Part shown: one piece after another, positions 2,678 through 48,369 of the stretch | Layout: the number at the start of each line of letters is the position of its first letter | Position numbering within the stretch: the first letter of the stretch is position 1 | Assembly: GCF_014077505.1 (NCBI RefSeq) | Contig: NZ_JACGWA010000009.1 | Span: forward strand, 62,001-126,000 | Direction of reading: 5' to 3' | Length of the DNA stretch: 64,000 nt | From: Colwellia sp. BRX10-3 | GTDB lineage: Bacteria > Pseudomonadota > Gammaproteobacteria > Enterobacterales > Alteromonadaceae | Notes under the pieces: model-generated | Database searches by the model: none | The model's input: the letters and a program-made list of their open reading frames with translations, nothing else | Told to the model about the DNA's origin: nothing | Made by a program: the position numbers and the translations under genes

Positions 2678-3844
2678 TCAAACACAAATTCGGCTTAAAG
2701 TTGTGTCAACTTCTGCCGCTGTTTGCTGCTGCATCTCTGCAAGTTCTGCTACCGATAGTAAATTGGCATTAAGTTCTCTACTTAATTTTACCACCATCGA
2801 CATATTGTCATTTATCGATGCAGTTGAATGCTGTTGCTCTGTGGTGCCTTGAGCTATTTGTGATGTTAAAGTATCTACTTCGGAAAACACTTGGCCTATT
2901 TTTTCTAGCGAATCAACTACTTGTGTTGAATGAATCAAGCTTTCTTGCGATAAAGTCTGACCACGGCCAATCGCATTTACCGCATTAGTCGACTTCTCTT
3001 GTAACCCTTCCACCATGGCATGAATTTCAACGGTAGATTCTTGTGTACGGTGTGCTAACGCCCTCACTTCATCGGCTACTACTGCGAAACCTCGGCCCTG
3101 TTCACCGGCTCGCGCGGCTTCAATAGCGGCATTTAATGCTAGCAAATTGGTTTGATCGGCAATACCACGGATAACCTCTAACACTGAACCAATGCGTGAG
3201 CACTCTTCTTGCAACAAGGCTAAATCAGAGGCCATTGTTGTTACTTCACTGTCGAAGGCTTCAATCGTGTGCTGGCTAGTATTTGAAGCGTTGGTACCTT
3301 GCTCTAAAATAGCTAATACTTGGCTTGATGTTTCACTCACCTGTGTTGCACTATCAGAAAGTGTCGCTGACGTTAAGGCAACTTGGTCAATTGAGTTCGC
3401 CATTTGTTCAATTTGATTTGCTGACTCATCAACCGCCCTAACCGAACCAACCATTTGAGCCGCTAACGACGCTGACCCTTGCTTTAAGATATCTGACTCA
3501 CTGCGAATCTCACTAATAACATCCGCTAAATTAGCAATGAACTTTGATAAGTCATTAGTCACCTTTGCTAAATCATCATTGTTTTCATCTTTTATCAGTA
3601 TGCTGGGTGCTTCATCAATACTCGCAACCTGATCAATATATTGCTGTAATTGTGCAAGTCGTTGAGTAAGTTTTTGCTGGGAATATAAATAACCGACAAC
3701 AACTTGTGCAACCACCATCACTAACAATAATATTGCCGTTACGTTTTGGCTAAGACCCTCTCCGAGAAAAACTAACGAGATGATACTAATAATTCCAATA
3801 AAAAAAGTAGGGACTAATAATTTGATACTGAGACTATTCGACAT
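2678..3844 (-). CDS. Methyl-accepting chemotaxis protein with minimal sensor region
   Basis: Chemoreceptor signalling to CheA/CheW. Two transmembrane helices at about residues 9-29 and 35-55 are separated by only a few residues, so there is almost no periplasmic domain. A HAMP-like linker follows (about 55-110), then a long coiled-coil signalling domain. Its conserved hairpin tip ([20 protein letters not shown] and on through [15 protein letters not shown]) spans about 225-264. At 388 residues it is short for the family. The ligand is unknown; it may sense through the membrane, the cytoplasm or another protein. It stands alone and converges on btuF. Confidence 0.94.
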
Positions 3845-12003: not shown

Positions 12004-12951
12004 TTACTGTCTCATTTCTTCTTGATCAGCGCCTTCTTTTTCAATCACTTCAGGGATTAAGTCTTCTTTCGAAATACCTAATGCCAAAGCAACTGAGCTA
12101 GCAACGTAAACAGATGAATAAGTACCAACAAAAACACCCAAGAGTAATGCCGTAGCAAAACCATGAATTAGTGCGCCACCTTTAAAGAACAAAGCTGAAA
12201 GTACTAATAAAGTGGTGATTGAGGTAATTATGGTACGCGATAAGGTTTGTGTTAAAGAAATATTAATCACATCTTCAGGGGTACCAACACGCACTTTTCT
12301 GAAGTTTTCTCGAATACGATCCGAGACCACTATCGTATCGTTCAGCGAGTAACCTATTACCGCAAGTATTGCCGCCAATACCGTTAAGTCGAACTCTAGT
12401 TGTAAAATAGAGAATAAACCTAAGGTTAACAATACATCATGAAATAGCGCGATAACTGAACCTAAAGCAAAACGCCATTCAAAGCGAAACGCGACATAAA
12501 CTAAAATACAGATAAGCGCGGTTAACATAGCTAAGCCACCCTGCTCTGCTAGCTCATCTCCGACACTCGCACCAACAAACTCGATACGACGCATATCAAT
12601 GGTTTGCCCTGTACCTGCTTGTAGAACGTCCAGTACTTGGTTACCTAGCATTTCTGCTTTTACATCTTCACGGGTTGCTAAACGTATCACCACATCACGG
12701 CTTGAACCGTATAGCTGCACAACCGCATCATCAAAGCCGTTTGAATCCATAATGCTACGGATTTTGGTTAGATCTGCTGAGTCTTCAAAACCAACTTCGA
12801 TTAAGGTACCACCGGTAAAATCTAAACCGAAATTGAGTTTATTTGTTGCCAATGAAACAACCGAAGCCGCCATTAGTATAATACTAAATATCACCGCTAC
12901 CTTGCGGTAGCGCATAAAGGCAACAGTATCTTTTAATTGTAAAATTTGCAT
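12004..12951 (-). CDS. secF: Protein translocase subunit SecF (SecDF1)
   Basis: Inner-membrane partner of SecD that uses the ion gradient to pull preproteins through SecYEG. The 315 residues show the SecF pattern: a first helix, then FGLDFTGGTLIEV (about 43-55), a short periplasmic domain, and a cluster of five helices including VIGYSLNDTIVVSDRIRENF (about 198-217). It starts 16 bases after secD. A second, diverged SecDF is encoded at 45.1-47.9 kb. Confidence 0.98.
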   Translation of the reverse strand: MQILQLKDTVAFMRYRKVAVIFSIILMAASVVSLATNKLNFGLDFTGGTLIEVGFEDSADLTKIRSIMDSNGFDDAVVQLYGSSRDVVIRLATREDVKAEMLGNQVLDVLQAGTGQTIDMRRIEFVGASVGDELAEQGGLAMLTALICILVYVAFRFEWRFALGSVIALFHDVLLTLGLFSILQLEFDLTVLAAILAVIGYSLNDTIVVSDRIRENFRKVRVGTPEDVINISLTQTLSRTIITSITTLLVLSALFFKGGALIHGFATALLLGVFVGTYSSVYVASSVALALGISKEDLIPEVIEKEGADQEEMRQ

Positions 12952-12967
12952 AATATTGAAGCCCTAC

Positions 12968-14815
12968 CTATATAGACAATTTATCGAGACGTTTACCACC
13001 CCAAACAGCGTTAACGACAGTACGAGTACCAATAACAGCAGTAAACATTGACGTTATAATACCGATTGATAATGTTACCGCGAAACCTTTAATTGGGCCT
13101 GTGCCGACGGCAAATAAAATCAAGGCAGCAATTAACGTGGTGATGTTAGCATCAATAATGGTTGAAAACGCAGCGTCATAACCTTGATGAATTGACTGTT
13201 GAATTGACTTACCTGCACGCATTTCTTCACGAATACGCTCAAAAATAAGGACGTTAGCATCAACGGCCATACCAACTGTTAACACTATCCCTGCCATACC
13301 AGGTAAGGTTAATGTTGCACCTGGGATCATAGACATAACACCAATAATCAAGACTAAGTTCGCGCCCAAGGCTAAGTTTGCCACCACACCAAAAGCACGG
13401 TAATAAACCAACATAAACAAGAAAACAAGACCAAAGCCCATCAAAATAGCATGGAAACCCAGTTGAACGTTTTCAGCACCTAATGTTGGCCCTACAGTGC
13501 GCTCTTCAACAATTTGAATTGGCGCAATCAAAGCACCCGCTCTAAGTAATAGTGCTAAGTTATGGGCTTCAGATTGACTACCTGCACCGGTAATTCGGAA
13601 GGTTTTACCTAAACGCGCTTGAATAGTTGCAACACTGATCACTTCTTCGATTTTCTCAAAAATAGTATTGCCTTCAGCATCAACGCGATCCGTTGGCTTG
13701 TATTCTATAAATACCGTTGCCATTGGCTTACCAATACTGTTTTTGGTACCGTTCGACATTTTACTACCGCCGGCAGAATCCAAAGTAATATTAACTTGCG
13801 GACGACTATATTCATCAAAACTTGAACCCGCATCAACAATATGATCACCGGTTAGCATCACGCGTTTTTTCAATAAAACAGGTTTGCCGTTACGCTCTTT
13901 TAGTAATTGAGAACTTCCCGGCACACGACCATTAAGTGCAGCACCTAAATCACCGTCAGTATCAACTAAGCGAAATTCAATAGTAGCGGTAGCATTTAAT
14001 ATTTCTTTTGCTTTCGCGGTATCTTGAACGCCCGGTAATTCAATAACAATATGCTTTTGACCTTGGCGTTGTACTAGCGGCTCAGCAACACCTAGCTCAT
14101 TAACACGATTACGAATAATGGTGATGTTTTGTTGCAGTGCATATTCACGAGTTTCTTTTAGCTTTTGTTCAGTCATTTTAGCGGATAACGTTAAGTTACC
14201 CTCATCACTAACAAACAATAAATCAGGGTTTTGTTTATCTAAATAAGTTTCTGCACTTACTAGATCTTCAGCATTACGAAATTGAATTTTAACGGCATCA
14301 TCAACTTTTTTCACTGAGCGATAACGAATTTTTTCGCTACGTAAGTCACTACGAAAATCGTCAACTAAACTTTCTTGCGCCTTATTAATGGCTTCTTTCA
14401 TGTTTACTTCCATTAGGAAGCTCACTCCGCCACTTAAATCTAAACCTAACTTCATTGGCGTTCCACCAATGCTTGCTAACCACTTAGGCGTTGCAGGTGT
14501 TAAGTTTAAGGCTACTGAATATTCATCGCCCATATTATCGTCAAGTAAATCACGTGCGCGCAATTGTTGTTCTGTATCACGGAATCGAGCTAATATTTGG
14601 CCGCCTTCCATGACGATACTTGCGTAGGAAATTTCCTTGCCATCTAAGTGAGACTTAACTACATCTAGCGTTGCTGCGTTTGTTTCAATACCGCGCAAGC
14701 CAGAAATTTGTACTGCAGGATCTTCACCATAAAGGTTAGGAGACGCATACAAAGCACCAACAGCAACTATTAATAGCACCATCAATGTTTTCCATAATGG
14801 ATATTTGTTTAACAC
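12968..14815 (-). CDS. secD: Protein translocase subunit SecD (SecDF1)
   Basis: 615 residues, the length usual for proteobacterial SecD. An N-terminal helix is followed by [17 protein letters not shown] (about 122-138), a large periplasmic P1 domain, and six C-terminal helices with [17 protein letters not shown] (about 520-536), where the Asp is part of the ion path. It works with SecF downstream and with YajC upstream. It is separated from yajC by 162 bases holding two hairpins, unlike the tight secD-secF junction. Confidence 0.98.
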
Positions 14816-43693: not shown

Positions 43694-44287
43694 TTATTCG
43701 TTTAGTAACCAGCCATTTTCTACAGCAAGCTCAATTTGTTCAGCAACATAAGTCCAGAGCTTAGGCGCCAAGCCATCCAATAAATTATTACGAGCAATAA
43801 CCTCTGACTTTCTAACATTATGCTTAGCCCAACTCCCCCCATCATTTTTCATATTTTGCAGTAAAGGTAATACTCGATCCATCGCTTTGGCAAATTTAGC
43901 ATCGTTCGTTTCAGCCGCTTCAAATTCTAACCACAGGTTTAACATTTCTTGATATTGCTTTTCAGGCAGTAAGCCAAATATACGATTTGCCGCATCAAGT
44001 TCTTTCGCTTCTTGTGCATCAAGTTCGGCTTGTGCAGCAAACGCAAAGGTGTCACCTGCATCAATTTCTACTATGTCATGTATCAGTAACATGGTGGTGA
44101 CACGAGCAACATTTACCGGTTCTGCGGCGTAAACATGGAGCGTTTGCGCCAGCATGGAAATATGCCAGCTATGCTCGGCACTGTTTTCTTGCCTGTTTTT
44201 ATCCGACTTTACCATCACCTTTCGATATACAGCTTTGAGGCGGTCTAACTCTAAAATAAAATTTAATTGTTGTGCTAAGTCTTGCAT
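43694..44287 (-). CDS. HD-domain phosphohydrolase, HDDC2/YfbR-like 5'-nucleotidase type
   Basis: 197 residues with the HD metal-binding set: ENSAEHSWHISMLA (about 34-47), LLIHDIVEIDAGDTFAF (about 67-83), and a distal MDRVLPLLQN. This pattern is that of HD_3 proteins such as human HDDC2 and relatives of E. coli YfbR, which remove phosphate from deoxynucleoside 5'-monophosphates. Activity on a given nucleotide is inferred. It converges with the methyltransferase gene. Confidence 0.82.
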   Translation of the reverse strand: MQDLAQQLNFILELDRLKAVYRKVMVKSDKNRQENSAEHSWHISMLAQTLHVYAAEPVNVARVTTMLLIHDIVEIDAGDTFAFAAQAELDAQEAKELDAANRIFGLLPEKQYQEMLNLWLEFEAAETNDAKFAKAMDRVLPLLQNMKNDGGSWAKHNVRKSEVIARNNLLDGLAPKLWTYVAEQIELAVENGWLLNE

Positions 44288-44527
44288 TTTTTATCCTATT
44301 TAAAACAAATCTGGTTATAGGTACTAGTCATATAAACTGATATGGGGGCTAACATTAAAAACTCCACCTTGGTAACTAACTGAATATATTAAAGACTAAT
44401 TAAAAGCGACAAATAAGTTATGTATAAAAACCTATACGATTTATTTCTACTAAAGTACTTATACGCTATTGAAAAGTAATAAAACGGCCTTATATTAAAC
44501 TTATTCAAGGTAAACAAATCTCTCGAT

Positions 44528-44947
44528 ATGTGGCGTTACATAACAATATTATTGGTGTTATTTTTATTAGCTCAAAGTGCTAATGCCTCGTCGTACTCAG
44601 AATTTAACCAAAACAAATTAGTACAACAAAACGATGTAGTTCAGCTAGACCAAAAAGCTAGAACTAATTTTGATGGGCAGCACTCACAAGATTTATTTAA
44701 CTTACCTCGCATCAATAGCATAAGCCCAGCAACTTTTTCGGTAGAAGCACAAACAGCACCAAACTATGTGTTAGTTATTGAGTTTTTTAAAACGAATAAC
44801 AGCGAAAGAGAATTTAAAAATTTAGCCTCCCCAGCAAAATTAATTAACTGGTTCGAACAATTAAACCACCAAGCAAAGTCATCTCGTATTTCCGGCTGGA
44901 AAGACGGCAATTTTTTATACAGTTCAAGAACCACCTACCACAGCTAG
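44528..44947 (+). CDS. VemP-like secretion-monitoring arrest peptide upstream of secDF2
   Basis: 139 residues with a Sec signal peptide (about 1-20, LLVLFLLAQSANA then SSYSE) and no other recognisable domain. Near the C-terminus, residues 119-128 read SRISGWKDGN, then 11 more residues to the end. Vibrio VemP, as I recall it, stalls the ribosome through a C-terminal segment containing RISGWKE and a stall site a few codons before its stop, and its gene lies directly upstream of secDF2. Position, size (VemP is 159), signal peptide and motif all fit. Stalling during slow export would expose the secD2 start. The ribosome binding site is weak. Function is inferred. Confidence 0.75.
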   Translation: MWRYITILLVLFLLAQSANASSYSEFNQNKLVQQNDVVQLDQKARTNFDGQHSQDLFNLPRINSISPATFSVEAQTAPNYVLVIEFFKTNNSEREFKNLASPAKLINWFEQLNHQAKSSRISGWKDGNFLYSSRTTYHS

Positions 44948-44964
44948 TTCATCAACACTCCCCC

Positions 44965-44995
44965 TCTAGTAATATCTTTTTAATTTATTACTAGA
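44965..44995 (+). promoter_or_regulatory. Intercistronic stem-loop between the VemP-like gene and secD2
   Basis: Perfect 10-bp stem TCTAGTAATA / TATTACTAGA with an 11-base T-rich loop, starting 18 bases after the stop codon. A ribosome stalled near the end of the upstream gene would come close to it. It is not followed by a T run. In Vibrio a structure in this interval controls secD2 translation. Confidence 0.6.
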
Positions 44996-45102
44996 ACAAA
45001 AATCGACTATTTTCCTTTTTATAAACTGATGCAAAGCCATCGGTCACTTATGAATTCGTTCAACTTAACGTTTCATTCCTGTGTAAATGTAGAGATTTCA
45101 AG

Positions 45103-47040
45103 ATGAACTCACGTAACAAATCCGCCAAAAAATACATTAGTTGGCAAAATATCGTCATTATGATCACCCTGATATTTATGATCATTAATGCCCTACCGAA
45201 CTTATACCCTGAAAAAGCAAGCATTCAGTTAACCAGCAATAGTAGCCAAAGCGTGCAAACATCGCCGCAAAAATTAAACACCTTATTACTCAGCAATCAG
45301 CTAGCGACAGAAAAAATAACCGCTAACGCAACAGGTATTACTATTATCTTAGCGAGCAAAACCGATGAGCAAGCAACTAAAGATCTATTAAAATCTGAAT
45401 TAGATGATAATTACTTGATTGCCAGCACACTAGAGAGTGATGCGCCACCATGGTTTAAGTCAATGAATATGGAACCGATAAAACTAGGGCTCGACCTGAG
45501 TGGTGGTGTGCTATTTGTATTAGACGTAGACACCGAAAGAGCGTTATTTGAACATCTTAAAGGATTCGCTGTTGACATAAAAACACTCAGTGTAGAAAAC
45601 AGAATTCGTGGCTTGAATATTTCTCAGCCAACTAATAACTCTATTGAAATTAGCTTTCCATCATCAATGCACAGCAAAGTTGAAAAACTGCTTAATGCTG
45701 TAACTAATAGCACGCCAGAACTCAGCATGAGTAAAACTAGCAATACTCAAATAACACTATTTTACCCACCGCAAGAGCAAGTTAAATTTAGACAAGCCAC
45801 CATGAAACAAACCTTGAAAACAATGCGAGGTCGTATTGAAGAGTTAGGTATTACCGAAGCGGTAACTCAACAGCAAGGTAAAAATAGAATTCGTATTGAG
45901 TTACCCGGCGTACATAACCCAGAAGAAGCCAAACGCATTATTGGCGCTACCGCAACACTAGACTTTTACCAGTTAGCTGATGGTTTAAATACCGCAGGTG
46001 TTATGCAAATGATAGATAGTAGTGGCCGTAAATTAAGCTTGAATAGCAAAGCTGTTTTTTCGGGTAGTAGTATTAAAAATGCACGCGCTGGACAAGACGA
46101 AATGGGCATGCCATTGGTCAACTTGACCTTAGACAGTATCGGCGGAAAAAAAATGTCGACATTCTCTAAAGCAAATATTGGTAAGCCTATGGTGACACTG
46201 TTCTCTGAGTTTCACCGCAACAGCGACAATGAAATAGTCAAGAAAAGCAAAATCATCAATGTCGCCAATATTTCTCAACATTTAGGTGCCCAATTTAGTA
46301 TCACTAATATGTCTAGCCCACAAGCAGCGCAAGAATTATCACTATTGCTACGTGCCGGTTCATTAAATGCCCCTGTTACCATAGTGATGCAGCGTAATAT
46401 TGAAGCAACGCTTGGCGCGGACAACATAGATAATGGTATTAAAGCGCTCAGTATCGGTATTTCGTTTACCTTATTGTTTATGGCTGTTTGGTACCGAACT
46501 TTAGGCCTTATTGCCAACATTGCTTTGGCATTAAATTTAGTAAGTTTACTTGGCCTAATGTCATTATTGCCCGGCTCTGTGTTAACTCTGCCCGGTATTG
46601 CAGGCTTAGTATTAACTGTAGGTATGGCAGTTGATGCCAATGTACTTATTTTTGAAAGAATTAAAGAAGAATTAAGGCGAGGGCGTCAAGTGTTATCAGC
46701 TATTGAAACCGGATACAAAAGTGCCTTCGCTACTATTCTTGATGCCAACATTACCACCATGATCACCGCTATTATTTTATACACCATAGGTTATGGACCA
46801 GTAAAAGGTTTTGCCATTATTTTGTGCTTAGGAATACTCACCAGTATGTTTACCGGCGTATTTGTCGCTAAAGCATTAACCAATATGGTCATCCGTGAAA
46901 ATAAAAACCAACTTATGGGTCTTAAATTGGCAGATAAAGTTGGCATTAGCTCATCGAGTAAGTTATCTACTAACTCTTTAGCTGAATTATCAGAAAAGTT
47001 AGGCACTAAATCCAAAGTAAAGCTAGGAGTTAACTCATGA
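45103..47040 (+). CDS. secD: Second protein translocase subunit SecD (SecD2)
   Basis: 645 residues with the SecD layout: an N-terminal helix, [17 protein letters not shown] (about 126-142), a large periplasmic domain and six C-terminal helices with [17 protein letters not shown]. It is clearly diverged from the SecD at 13-14.8 kb. A polar tail of about 45 residues after the last helix (repeated Lys-Leu-Ser patches) is absent from SecD1. AGAGA lies 7 bases before the ATG. It overlaps secF2 by four bases. In Vibrio, SecDF2 replaces Na+-driven SecDF1 when Na+ is low. Confidence 0.96.
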   Translation: MNSRNKSAKKYISWQNIVIMITLIFMIINALPNLYPEKASIQLTSNSSQSVQTSPQKLNTLLLSNQLATEKITANATGITIILASKTDEQATKDLLKSELDDNYLIASTLESDAPPWFKSMNMEPIKLGLDLSGGVLFVLDVDTERALFEHLKGFAVDIKTLSVENRIRGLNISQPTNNSIEISFPSSMHSKVEKLLNAVTNSTPELSMSKTSNTQITLFYPPQEQVKFRQATMKQTLKTMRGRIEELGITEAVTQQQGKNRIRIELPGVHNPEEAKRIIGATATLDFYQLADGLNTAGVMQMIDSSGRKLSLNSKAVFSGSSIKNARAGQDEMGMPLVNLTLDSIGGKKMSTFSKANIGKPMVTLFSEFHRNSDNEIVKKSKIINVANISQHLGAQFSITNMSSPQAAQELSLLLRAGSLNAPVTIVMQRNIEATLGADNIDNGIKALSIGISFTLLFMAVWYRTLGLIANIALALNLVSLLGLMSLLPGSVLTLPGIAGLVLTVGMAVDANVLIFERIKEELRRGRQVLSAIETGYKSAFATILDANITTMITAIILYTIGYGPVKGFAIILCLGILTSMFTGVFVAKALTNMVIRENKNQLMGLKLADKVGISSSSKLSTNSLAELSEKLGTKSKVKLGVNS

Positions 47041-47945
47041 AAAACAACGTATCTCGTATCAGTAAATTTCGCTTTGCCAGCTTCTATTTTGCCGCAATGC
47101 TTATCACTATTTCATTATTTGGCTTATTTACGCAAGGCCTTAACCTTGGCTTAGATTTTACCGGTGGCTACTTAACTGAATTTTCAACTGAGCAATCGAT
47201 TGACCAAACCAAAATGAACCAACAGCTTAGTGAGTATTTAACGGATGATTTTCAATTATCTGCTGCCGACAACGGCACACATTGGAGCGTTCGACAAACT
47301 GATGCCAACATTGGACAACAAGATAGCAGTTGGTTGACTGAATTCTCCCAACAAAGCGGTTTATCGATAACCCCACAAAACGCTATATATATTGGCAGCC
47401 AAGTCGGTGATGAACTTATTGACCAAGGTGGCCTAGCGTTACTCACCGCTGTTATCGTGATATTAGTTTACTTATCGCTGAGGTTTGAATGGCGACTAGC
47501 TGCAGGCTCAGTAGTTGCTCTGGTTCATGACGTGGTTGTCGTACTCGGTATATTCGCGTGGTTTAATATCTCTTTTGATTTAACGATATTAGCAAGTTTA
47601 TTGGCCATTATAGGCTACTCGCTTAATGACTCGATAATCGTTGGAGATAAGGTTAGAGAGATCATGATACGAAACAAAGACGGCGATATTGATGACATTA
47701 TTAACCAAGCGATTAAATCTACTTTAGTGCGAACATTAATCACCTCAGGCACAACACTTGCTACGGTACTGGCAATAGGATTATTTGCGGGTGAATCATT
47801 GGCGGGTTTTGCTATTGCATTGTTTGCTGGCATATTAATTGGCACATATTCATCAATTGCCATATCAGCTACTATCCCACAATTATTAGGTTTGAGTGCT
47901 GATCACTACCATAAAAAAGAGCATGAAGTTTGCACTCTACCTTAA
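47037..47945 (+). CDS. secF: Second protein translocase subunit SecF (SecF2)
   Basis: 302 residues, SecF pattern with NLGLDFTGGYLTEF (about 38-51), a periplasmic loop, and IIGYSLNDSIIVGDKVREIM in the helical bundle. The start codon overlaps the secD2 stop (ATGA), so both are made in a fixed ratio. No yajC is linked to this copy. A terminator about 110 bases later ends the unit. Confidence 0.96.
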   Translation: MKNNVSRISKFRFASFYFAAMLITISLFGLFTQGLNLGLDFTGGYLTEFSTEQSIDQTKMNQQLSEYLTDDFQLSAADNGTHWSVRQTDANIGQQDSSWLTEFSQQSGLSITPQNAIYIGSQVGDELIDQGGLALLTAVIVILVYLSLRFEWRLAAGSVVALVHDVVVVLGIFAWFNISFDLTILASLLAIIGYSLNDSIIVGDKVREIMIRNKDGDIDDIINQAIKSTLVRTLITSGTTLATVLAIGLFAGESLAGFAIALFAGILIGTYSSIAISATIPQLLGLSADHYHKKEHEVCTLP

Positions 47946-48053
47946 GTTTTTGTGTTCTTTAAAATATCAGTGTGTTTTAAAATATGATTGAGCTTTTAAA
48001 GGTATGTAAGCAGCGAAAAATTTATTGCGCACGAAGCAATAATTAAAAGAGTT

Positions 48054-48098
48054 AAAGGCACAGGTTCATCGTTATAAATTGAGCTTGTGCCTTTTTTT
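48054..48098 (+). terminator. Rho-independent terminator of the secDF2 unit
   Basis: Stem AAAGGCACA / TGTGCCTTT with partial pairing inside a 23-base loop, followed by a seven-T run. Confidence 0.8.
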
Positions 48099-48192
48099 CG
48101 AGAATACTATCTCAATCCATAGTACTAAATATAGGATTTAAAACTCACTTTATATTCAAGCTGAACATTGCTTATTTAATTCATTATTAGAC

Positions 48193-48369
48193 TTAATTAA
48201 ATAAGCTGGCAAGCCAATCAAAGGTTAACACAGTTGTGAATATTTTTAAGCCAATCAAACCAATAACTAAGACGATGAGTAATGCTTTCGCTTTCTTACT
48301 TTTTATGTTCTTCCAATATACCCACTTTGCTTTAATCTCCTCTTTAACTTCATTACTTGCTTCTTTCAT
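48193..48369 (-). CDS. Small basic membrane protein, 58 residues
   Basis: A charged, Lys-rich N-terminus (residues 1-28) precedes one transmembrane helix (about 29-48) and a short C-terminus. No family recognised. GAGAAA about 8 bases before the ATG is a weak ribosome binding site. It begins 38 bases after the lipoprotein gene on the same strand, so it may be co-transcribed with it. Confidence 0.55.
   Translation of the reverse strand: MKEASNEVKEEIKAKWVYWKNIKSKKAKALLIVLVIGLIGLKIFTTVLTFDWLASLFN

Follow-up and report, generated by a model that had tools for sequence, protein, structure and literature searches.

The window analysed in this study, a 64,000-nucleotide (nt) stretch of Colwellia sp. 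BRX10-3, carries a small leader gene encoding 139 residues (44528-44947, plus strand) directly before the secD2 and secF2 genes of a second SecDF, and this leader is very probably an export-monitoring arrest leader of the VemP type for secD2-secF2. Gene order, a conserved anchor and tip, a co-varying RNA pairing and the orthology of SecD2 are read from sequence comparison; from them we infer ribosome stalling, its release by export and control of secD2. An earlier note on this DNA had proposed that, outside Vibrio as well, a second SecDF is preceded by an arrest leader resembling VemP, and comparison with relatives supports this proposal, the best match of a broad leader profile in the Protein Data Bank (PDB) being the VemP chain.

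The open reading frame (ORF) 44528-44947 is as described in the earlier note, with SRISGWKDGN at residues 119-128 of its product. The N-terminus (residues 1-21, MWRYITILLVLFLLAQSANAS, 44528-44590, plus strand) is signal-peptide-like and hydrophobic, both by eye and on the Kyte-Doolittle scale, and, in keeping with the claim that the protein has no other domain, no Pfam or NCBIfam family matched it above cut-off. A leader profile search of the same genome returned this gene as its sole significant match (next match, E-value 2.2), and among named organisms Colwellia polaris has the closest relative of the leader (63% identity).

A SecD model was run against 147 genomes from the family to which the window belongs, and the 30 best-scoring loci were read. 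An anchor-bearing ORF ends just upstream of secD2 in 28 of them, including the locus of the window, and the remaining two (L036 and L037) are secD1 loci with tgt and yajC frames upstream. These 28 loci were found via SecD2 and not via the leader, although they were read with a motif expression. Their leaders share R..GWKD.N..Y, in which R, G and K are each changed once. F70, Q75, P78, W108, W124, D126, N128, Y131 and Y137 are invariant in the alignment of these leaders (A1, 28/28 rows), and R120, G123, K125 and T136 are kept in 27 rows, so that the RISGWK region singled out from the single sequence is conserved in relatives. The conserved features include the anchor R120-Y131 (RISGWKDGNFLY, 44885-44920, plus strand) and the tip T136-Y137-H138-S139 (44933-44944, plus strand). 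The codons of most conserved residues vary synonymously (K is AAA in 53/53), which indicates selection on the protein. For the wider leader sets, the selection expression fixes W and allows R/K at position 1, K/R/Q at position 6 and N/L at position 9, and anchor conservation in those sets is therefore partly by construction.

A broader leader profile matched in 38 of the same 147 genomes, and nine further regions were read, leaving out G136 and a second match in G119. Three of the nine (G019, G047 and G144) contain leaders before secD2, five contain leaders before S41 peptidase genes, and one (G091) contains a plain leader. In this last genome, of the same genus (L231), the intact-looking leader precedes a 337-residue secD2 frame, and a secF2 match is absent. 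A class-wide search matched five of 369 genomes, namely the genome of the window, G001 and three weak cases, two of them with stop codons.

VemP of Vibrio alginolyticus (vemP-secD2-secF2) resembles the leader in gene order, in its signal-peptide-like start, in an upstream Trp, in an R-I-x-G-W-K..N..Y anchor, and in an RNA masking the ribosome-binding site (RBS) that could be opened by a stalled ribosome. As a single sequence, the leader had no match in the PDB; an Alteromonadaceae-only profile gave the VemP nascent chain 5nwy_s as its best match, aligned at RISGWKETNAMY and not significant (E-value 0.19), and the broad profile A2 (37 rows, including Vibrio leaders) gave 5nwy_s as its best match with an E-value of 5.2e-4 over 118 profile positions. 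The arrest sequence of VemP has been quoted as HRIXGWKETNAMYVXLNXX (PMC7897499), and arrest occurs with Q156 in the P site (PMC5449182). A gapless correspondence places R139, I140, G142, W143, K144, N147 and Y150 of VemP at R120, I121, G123, W124, K125, N128 and Y131 of the leader, and Q156 at Y137. In the exit tunnel, W143 and K144 of VemP contact uL22 and U747, R139 stacks on A752 and Y150 on C2610 (PMC5449182), and all four of these residues are kept in the leader. The alignments and the profile match thus make R120-Y131 the counterpart of VemP R139-Y150, and Trp108 (44849-44851, plus strand; W in 28/28 A1 rows and 36/37 A2 rows) is a possible counterpart of the outer Trp124 of VemP. The published VemP family motif RxxxWKxxNxxY is matched exactly by R120, W124, K125, N128 and Y131. 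The whole V. alginolyticus arrest sequence HRIxGWKETNAMYVxLNxQ is not found: R, I, G, W, K, N and Y are kept, whereas H138, E145, T146, A148, M149, V151, L153, N154 and Q156 are not. E145-T146 is replaced by D-G, which bears out the claim that the residues after the Trp differ from VemP; A148-M149 is replaced by F-L, and VxLNxQ near the peptidyl transferase center (PTC) by SxRTTYHS. The position of the P-site Gln156 is a Tyr that is invariant among the 28 relatives, and the host belongs to another bacterial family. By comparison of sequences, the leader has the published VemP motif, the same gene order, homology to VemP and a matching RNA architecture, but not the full V. alginolyticus arrest sequence.

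Alternatively, the small protein might work as an exported protein, for example as a periplasmic partner of SecDF2, its C-terminus being conserved for that reason, with plain translational coupling to secD2. Such a role would agree with the signal-peptide-like N-terminus and with the presence of another conserved stretch, in which F70, Q75 and P78 are each kept in 28/28. Similarity in the broad set is, however, concentrated near the C-terminus and matches the VemP tunnel-contact residues, and such leaders also precede unrelated genes, where the complementarity described below is again lowest at the stop; we regard an exported function as improbable.

Among 99 distinct leaders before secD2, 54 have a Tyr aligned with Y137 and preceded by T, R or N. 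This Tyr is followed by two residues in 48 leaders, by one in three and by three in three, and its spacing from the anchor is fixed. Because the anchor-Tyr spacing is fixed and the Tyr-stop spacing varies, the Tyr codon (44936-44938, plus strand, at the position of VemP Q156) is favoured over the stop codon as the putative stall site, with Tyr137 in the P site. Stalling at the stop codon by slow termination, like that of the uDF_NAP-stop or DGMK-stop peptides, is the less likely arrangement but deserves some weight: all 28 A1 leaders end two residues after Tyr137, and such arrest has been described in other leaders of secDF genes (PMC10987492). It fits poorly with the leaders in which one or three residues follow the Tyr, with some yqjA leaders that end later, and with the fixed anchor-Tyr spacing.

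A segment at the leader stop is predicted to pair with the secD2 RBS region and co-varies with it across loci. In the window, the anti-start segment AGTTCATC (44946-44953, plus strand) is complementary to GATGAACT (45102-45109, including the start codon), and the anti-Shine-Dalgarno segment CTCTA (44964-44968, plus strand) to TAGAG (45090-45094) at the RBS; the duplex of both pairing pieces together has an energy of -12.4 kcal/mol. The RBS (TAGAGAT, 45090-45096; 45090-45105 with the start codon, plus strand) is weak, and a perfect 10-bp stem-loop follows the stop (44965-44995, plus strand; arms 44965-44974 and 44986-44995; -9.8 kcal/mol), both as had been noted earlier. This local hairpin lies inside the long-range pairing, between the pairing pieces, and shares bases with the CTCTA piece.

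The 25 nt from the leader stop were paired with the secD2 start region of their own or of other loci, using 54 non-redundant loci drawn from the 130 for which a secD start had been assigned heuristically. Cognate pairs averaged -9.40 kcal/mol and non-cognate pairs -7.34 kcal/mol (z -6.4), and none of 20,000 permutations was as low. When each leader cluster was represented by a single locus (24 loci, leaders below 45% identity), the p values were 0.0016 for offset 0 and 1e-4 for offset -10. When the position of the segment was shifted, the energy dipped only around the stop, with -8.4 to -10.3 at offsets -10 to +5 and -6.3 to -7.4 elsewhere; counted from the Tyr137-equivalent codon, the dip lies 4-28 nt after it in 45 short-tail loci. 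Pairing is also kept where the sequence has changed, as for CGTTCTC with GAGAACG in Paraglaciecola-type loci, TTTGTTCTC with GAGAACAAA in L081, and CTCTGTTA with TAACAGAG in Shewanella (L075). The possibility that the complementarity reflects base composition, the hairpin being a spacer and secD2 not being regulated by the leader, gains something from the window fold predictions, which depend on the stretch chosen, but is made very unlikely by the permutation and position controls. A different complementarity suggested earlier, between AAATCTCT (44516-44523) and AGAGATTT (45091-45098), has its sites where described and is not kept among relatives (42 loci, cognate -7.90 vs non-cognate -8.46 kcal/mol, p 0.94), and was rejected.

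The footprint of a stalled ribosome extends about 15 nt past the P site on the downstream side. With this footprint, a ribosome holding Tyr137 in its P site would reach to about 44951, into the pairing segment. In the predicted fold of 44930-45130, the start codon is unpaired at 0.00 in the free RNA and at 0.43 with the ribosome, and the opening energy falls from 9.1 to 5.4 kcal/mol. In the mechanism that we propose, the signal sequence would direct the nascent leader chain to the Sec translocon. When export is too weak to pull, R120..G123-W124-K125-D126..N128..Y131 would hold in the ribosome exit tunnel, and the ribosome would halt toward the end of the ORF; the likeliest arrangement places Tyr137 in the P site and His138 in the A site. 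In this state it would melt the pairing of the post-stop segment with the secD2 RBS and start codon, allowing SecD2F2 to be made. Working export would instead pull the chain free, the leader would be finished, and the secD2 RBS would close again.

Several observations weigh against this interpretation. In VemP, N154 reaches U2506, and L153, N154 and Q156 are named as important near the PTC (PMC5449182), and these PTC-proximal residues are not kept in the leader. Since the tunnel contacts are kept and L153, N154 and Q156 are not, the mid-tunnel half is that of VemP and the PTC-proximal half the leader's own. Other tips (e.g., HHHIRFS, SHFRELLS and VFLNTQYA) are present in 45 of the 99 leaders. 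The leader segment LF57-N-L-P-R61 has a spacing similar to that of the short hydrophobic segment and Arg85 of VemP, with the Arg85-like R61 present in only 20/28 A1 rows and 6/37 A2 rows. N128 is lost in the worn anchors of the secD2 leaders of G019, G047 and G144 (L232, L237 and L238), and Y131 also in that of G047; such worn anchors make strict invariance of the anchor doubtful. The leader of Thalassotalea sp. 42_200_T64 (L060, stop at 3406) ends before the Tyr codon. As to the RNA, the dip is weak in nine long-tail loci (-6.9 vs about -5 to -6.5), and the rank of the cognate start at individual loci varies between 1 and 52 of 54. The opening energy barely moves in two longer stretches (5.7 to 5.4 and 6.0 to 6.4), and the modelled fold of the window is thus not robust, a clear effect appearing in one of three stretches. 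At the Thalassotalea locus, similarity to SecD2 starts only at residue 260, suggesting a decayed or misassembled copy.

In a tree of 29 SecD2 and 14 SecD1 rows, the SecD2 proteins group as a single clade (support 100/100), with one branch comprising Vibrio/Shewanella/Moritella/Photobacterium and the other Psychromonas/Pleioneaceae-Kangiellaceae/Alteromonadaceae/Colwellia. V. mediterranei (L093), whose leader has a VemP-like tip, splits first in the former branch. Tyr-type tips are found, by eye, mostly in the Psychromonas/Alteromonadaceae/Colwellia branch, with exceptions such as Thalassotalea marina (L064) and L100. One genome (G154; L193 and L201) contains two SecD2 copies, one from each branch.

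In the window, secD2 (45103-47040, plus strand) was identified by NF009545 (758.8 bits, cut-off 728) and by its place in the SecD2 clade, and secF2 (47037-47945, plus strand) by TIGR00966 (262.1 bits, cut-off 160). The first pair lies 30 kb away in the same window, so that this SecDF is the second of the genome: secD1 (12968-14815, minus strand; 59% identity to E. coli SecD by tblastn) and secF1 (12004-12951, minus strand; 48% to E. coli SecF), both also seen as ORFs, adjoin tgt and yajC on the minus strand in the order tgt-yajC-secD1-secF1 (tblastn with E. coli YajC and Tgt). As a query, E. coli SecD is 59% identical to SecD1 and 40% to SecD2. An Rfam scan of 44200-48200 gave no match at the gathering threshold. 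A promoter scan was uninformative (11 sites vs 14.7 expected), and TTGAAA-16-TATATT (44469-44496) is a candidate only.

Leaders of this kind are also found before genes other than secD2. A contig scan with the pattern GWKD[GS]Nx[LQ]Y gave 59 loci, eight of which have no secD within 2.4 kb (L066, L067, L083, L087, L088, L089, L094 and L096), and their neighbours led to three recurring contexts, namely yqjA, S41-family peptidase genes and chaA-type antiporter genes. A leader lies directly before a yqjA-kind DedA gene in Serratia sp. Ag1 (L067:2806-3246) and in 12 of 14 matches among 148 Enterobacteriaceae-like genomes (L130-L141); the other two matches (L142 and L143) were set aside as chance after reading. 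Tyr occupies the Y137 position in 12 of the 13 yqjA leaders, and mzrA follows yqjA in the Serratia locus and in 11 of the 12 Enterobacteriaceae-like loci, being not seen in L136. The two yqjA-leader genomes tested (G421 and G446) each encode one SecD at an E-value of at most 1e-60. Complementarity was assessed in the yqjA and S41 contexts by position control only, without permutation, and in the yqjA leaders it is lowest around the stop, with a modest dip (-10 to -10.7 vs -6.8 to -9.1). MzrA (L067:4009-4425) is a free-standing SecD N-terminal domain (Pfam SecD-TM1, 67.8 bits), and a SecD-like domain is thus located downstream of the leader in this context too. An origin of MzrA as a SecD2 remnant is not supported: for the MzrA proteins of L067 and L130, N-termini of SecD1 give slightly higher scores than those of SecD2, and the reverse holds only for E. 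coli MzrA. E. coli K-12 yqiM (27 residues, before yqjA, L175:5169-5252) was considered as a short relative of the leader and rejected, the anchor being absent.

Ten genomes contain leaders before S41-family peptidase genes: G018, G101, G135, G093, G041, G030, G045, G251, G289 and that of Gilvimarinus (loci L233, L234, L235, L236, L174, L240, L241, L242, L248 and L096). The peptidase was confirmed by tblastn in 10/10 and by Pfam in all four scanned. The anchors of these leaders are more worn, G030 lacking the Trp and G018 and G045 lacking G and K. A second hydrophobic segment, central and membrane-like, exceeds a Kyte-Doolittle mean of 2.3 in four of six S41 leaders examined, whereas the same measure averages 1.06 in 133 secD2-type leaders and reaches at most 2.26. 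As in the yqjA leaders, the complementarity is lowest near the stop (six loci). Leaders before ChaA-type cation antiporter genes were found in some Vibrio (L083:2992-3447, L088:2992-3447, L087:2216-2668 and G1096), and the pairing test was mixed there; G1096, with a chaA identical to that of L083, may be the same species. In L087, a DedA gene follows the antiporter gene. A Pseudohongiella metagenome-assembled genome provides a single case of an anchor-bearing leader before a MacB/FtsX-type permease (L066:2914-3342), and two leaders with good anchors (L089:2671-3123 and L094:2737-3210) have no same-strand ORF of at least 90 residues in about 700 nt after them.

In a previous screen of genes before secA, secDF or yidC in 30,175 genomes, 339 VemP-like sequences with an RxxxWKxxNxxY-like motif were reported (Fujiwara et al., 2024; PMC10987492). 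The leader matches the motif of that VemP cluster exactly, and the screen differs from the present survey in covering only genes upstream of secA, secDF and yidC; the sections of it consulted here do not name VemP taxa outside Vibrio or mention tip classes. Also described there is uDF_RQH_Enterobacterales of Alteromonas naphthalenivorans (RGPP motif), an arrest leader that likewise precedes secDF2 and combines a local stem-loop with another stem that masks the Shine-Dalgarno sequence (PMC10987492), but has an arrest motif unrelated to that of the leader. No R-A/G-P-P-like motif, as in the RAPP/RQH arrest peptides, occurs near the C-terminus of the leader, which has no Pro after P102 of 139. 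The uC_KYxIW peptide, which we take to be CliM, is similar in that its mid-tunnel motif is conserved and its residues near the PTC are less so (PMC10987492), but precedes yidC in Clostridia; no search for a sequence relation to the leader was made. Literature searches for a leader peptide with yqjA or an arrest peptide with DedA returned nothing, and those for VemP with Photobacterium returned only papers on other subjects.

The leaders before other targets are a more surprising result than the secD2 leader itself. YqjA has been tied to membrane potential and alkaline pH (PMC10846249), and the yqjA, S41 and chaA targets may share a dependence on motive force. We lean, by a modest degree, toward the view that VemP represents one branch within a class of portable nascent-chain export sensors, consisting of a fixed mid-tunnel anchor RxxGWK[DE]xNxxY, an exchangeable PTC-proximal tip and a co-changing, RBS-complementary RNA at the stop codon. 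This class would also govern yqjA(DedA)-mzrA in Enterobacteriaceae-like genomes, S41 peptidases in Alteromonadaceae, a related family and Gilvimarinus, and ChaA in some Vibrio, reading failing export or motive force and turning on several envelope responses. An anchor kept over several families with a tip that changes by lineage amounts to a natural swap of the PTC-proximal half of an arrest peptide, and such swaps offer a direct way to test which of the two halves grips the chain and which one blocks peptide transfer. Should stalling extend to the yqjA, S41 and chaA leaders, arrest-based export monitoring would control envelope and ion genes outside the Sec machinery, including in relatives of E. 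coli.

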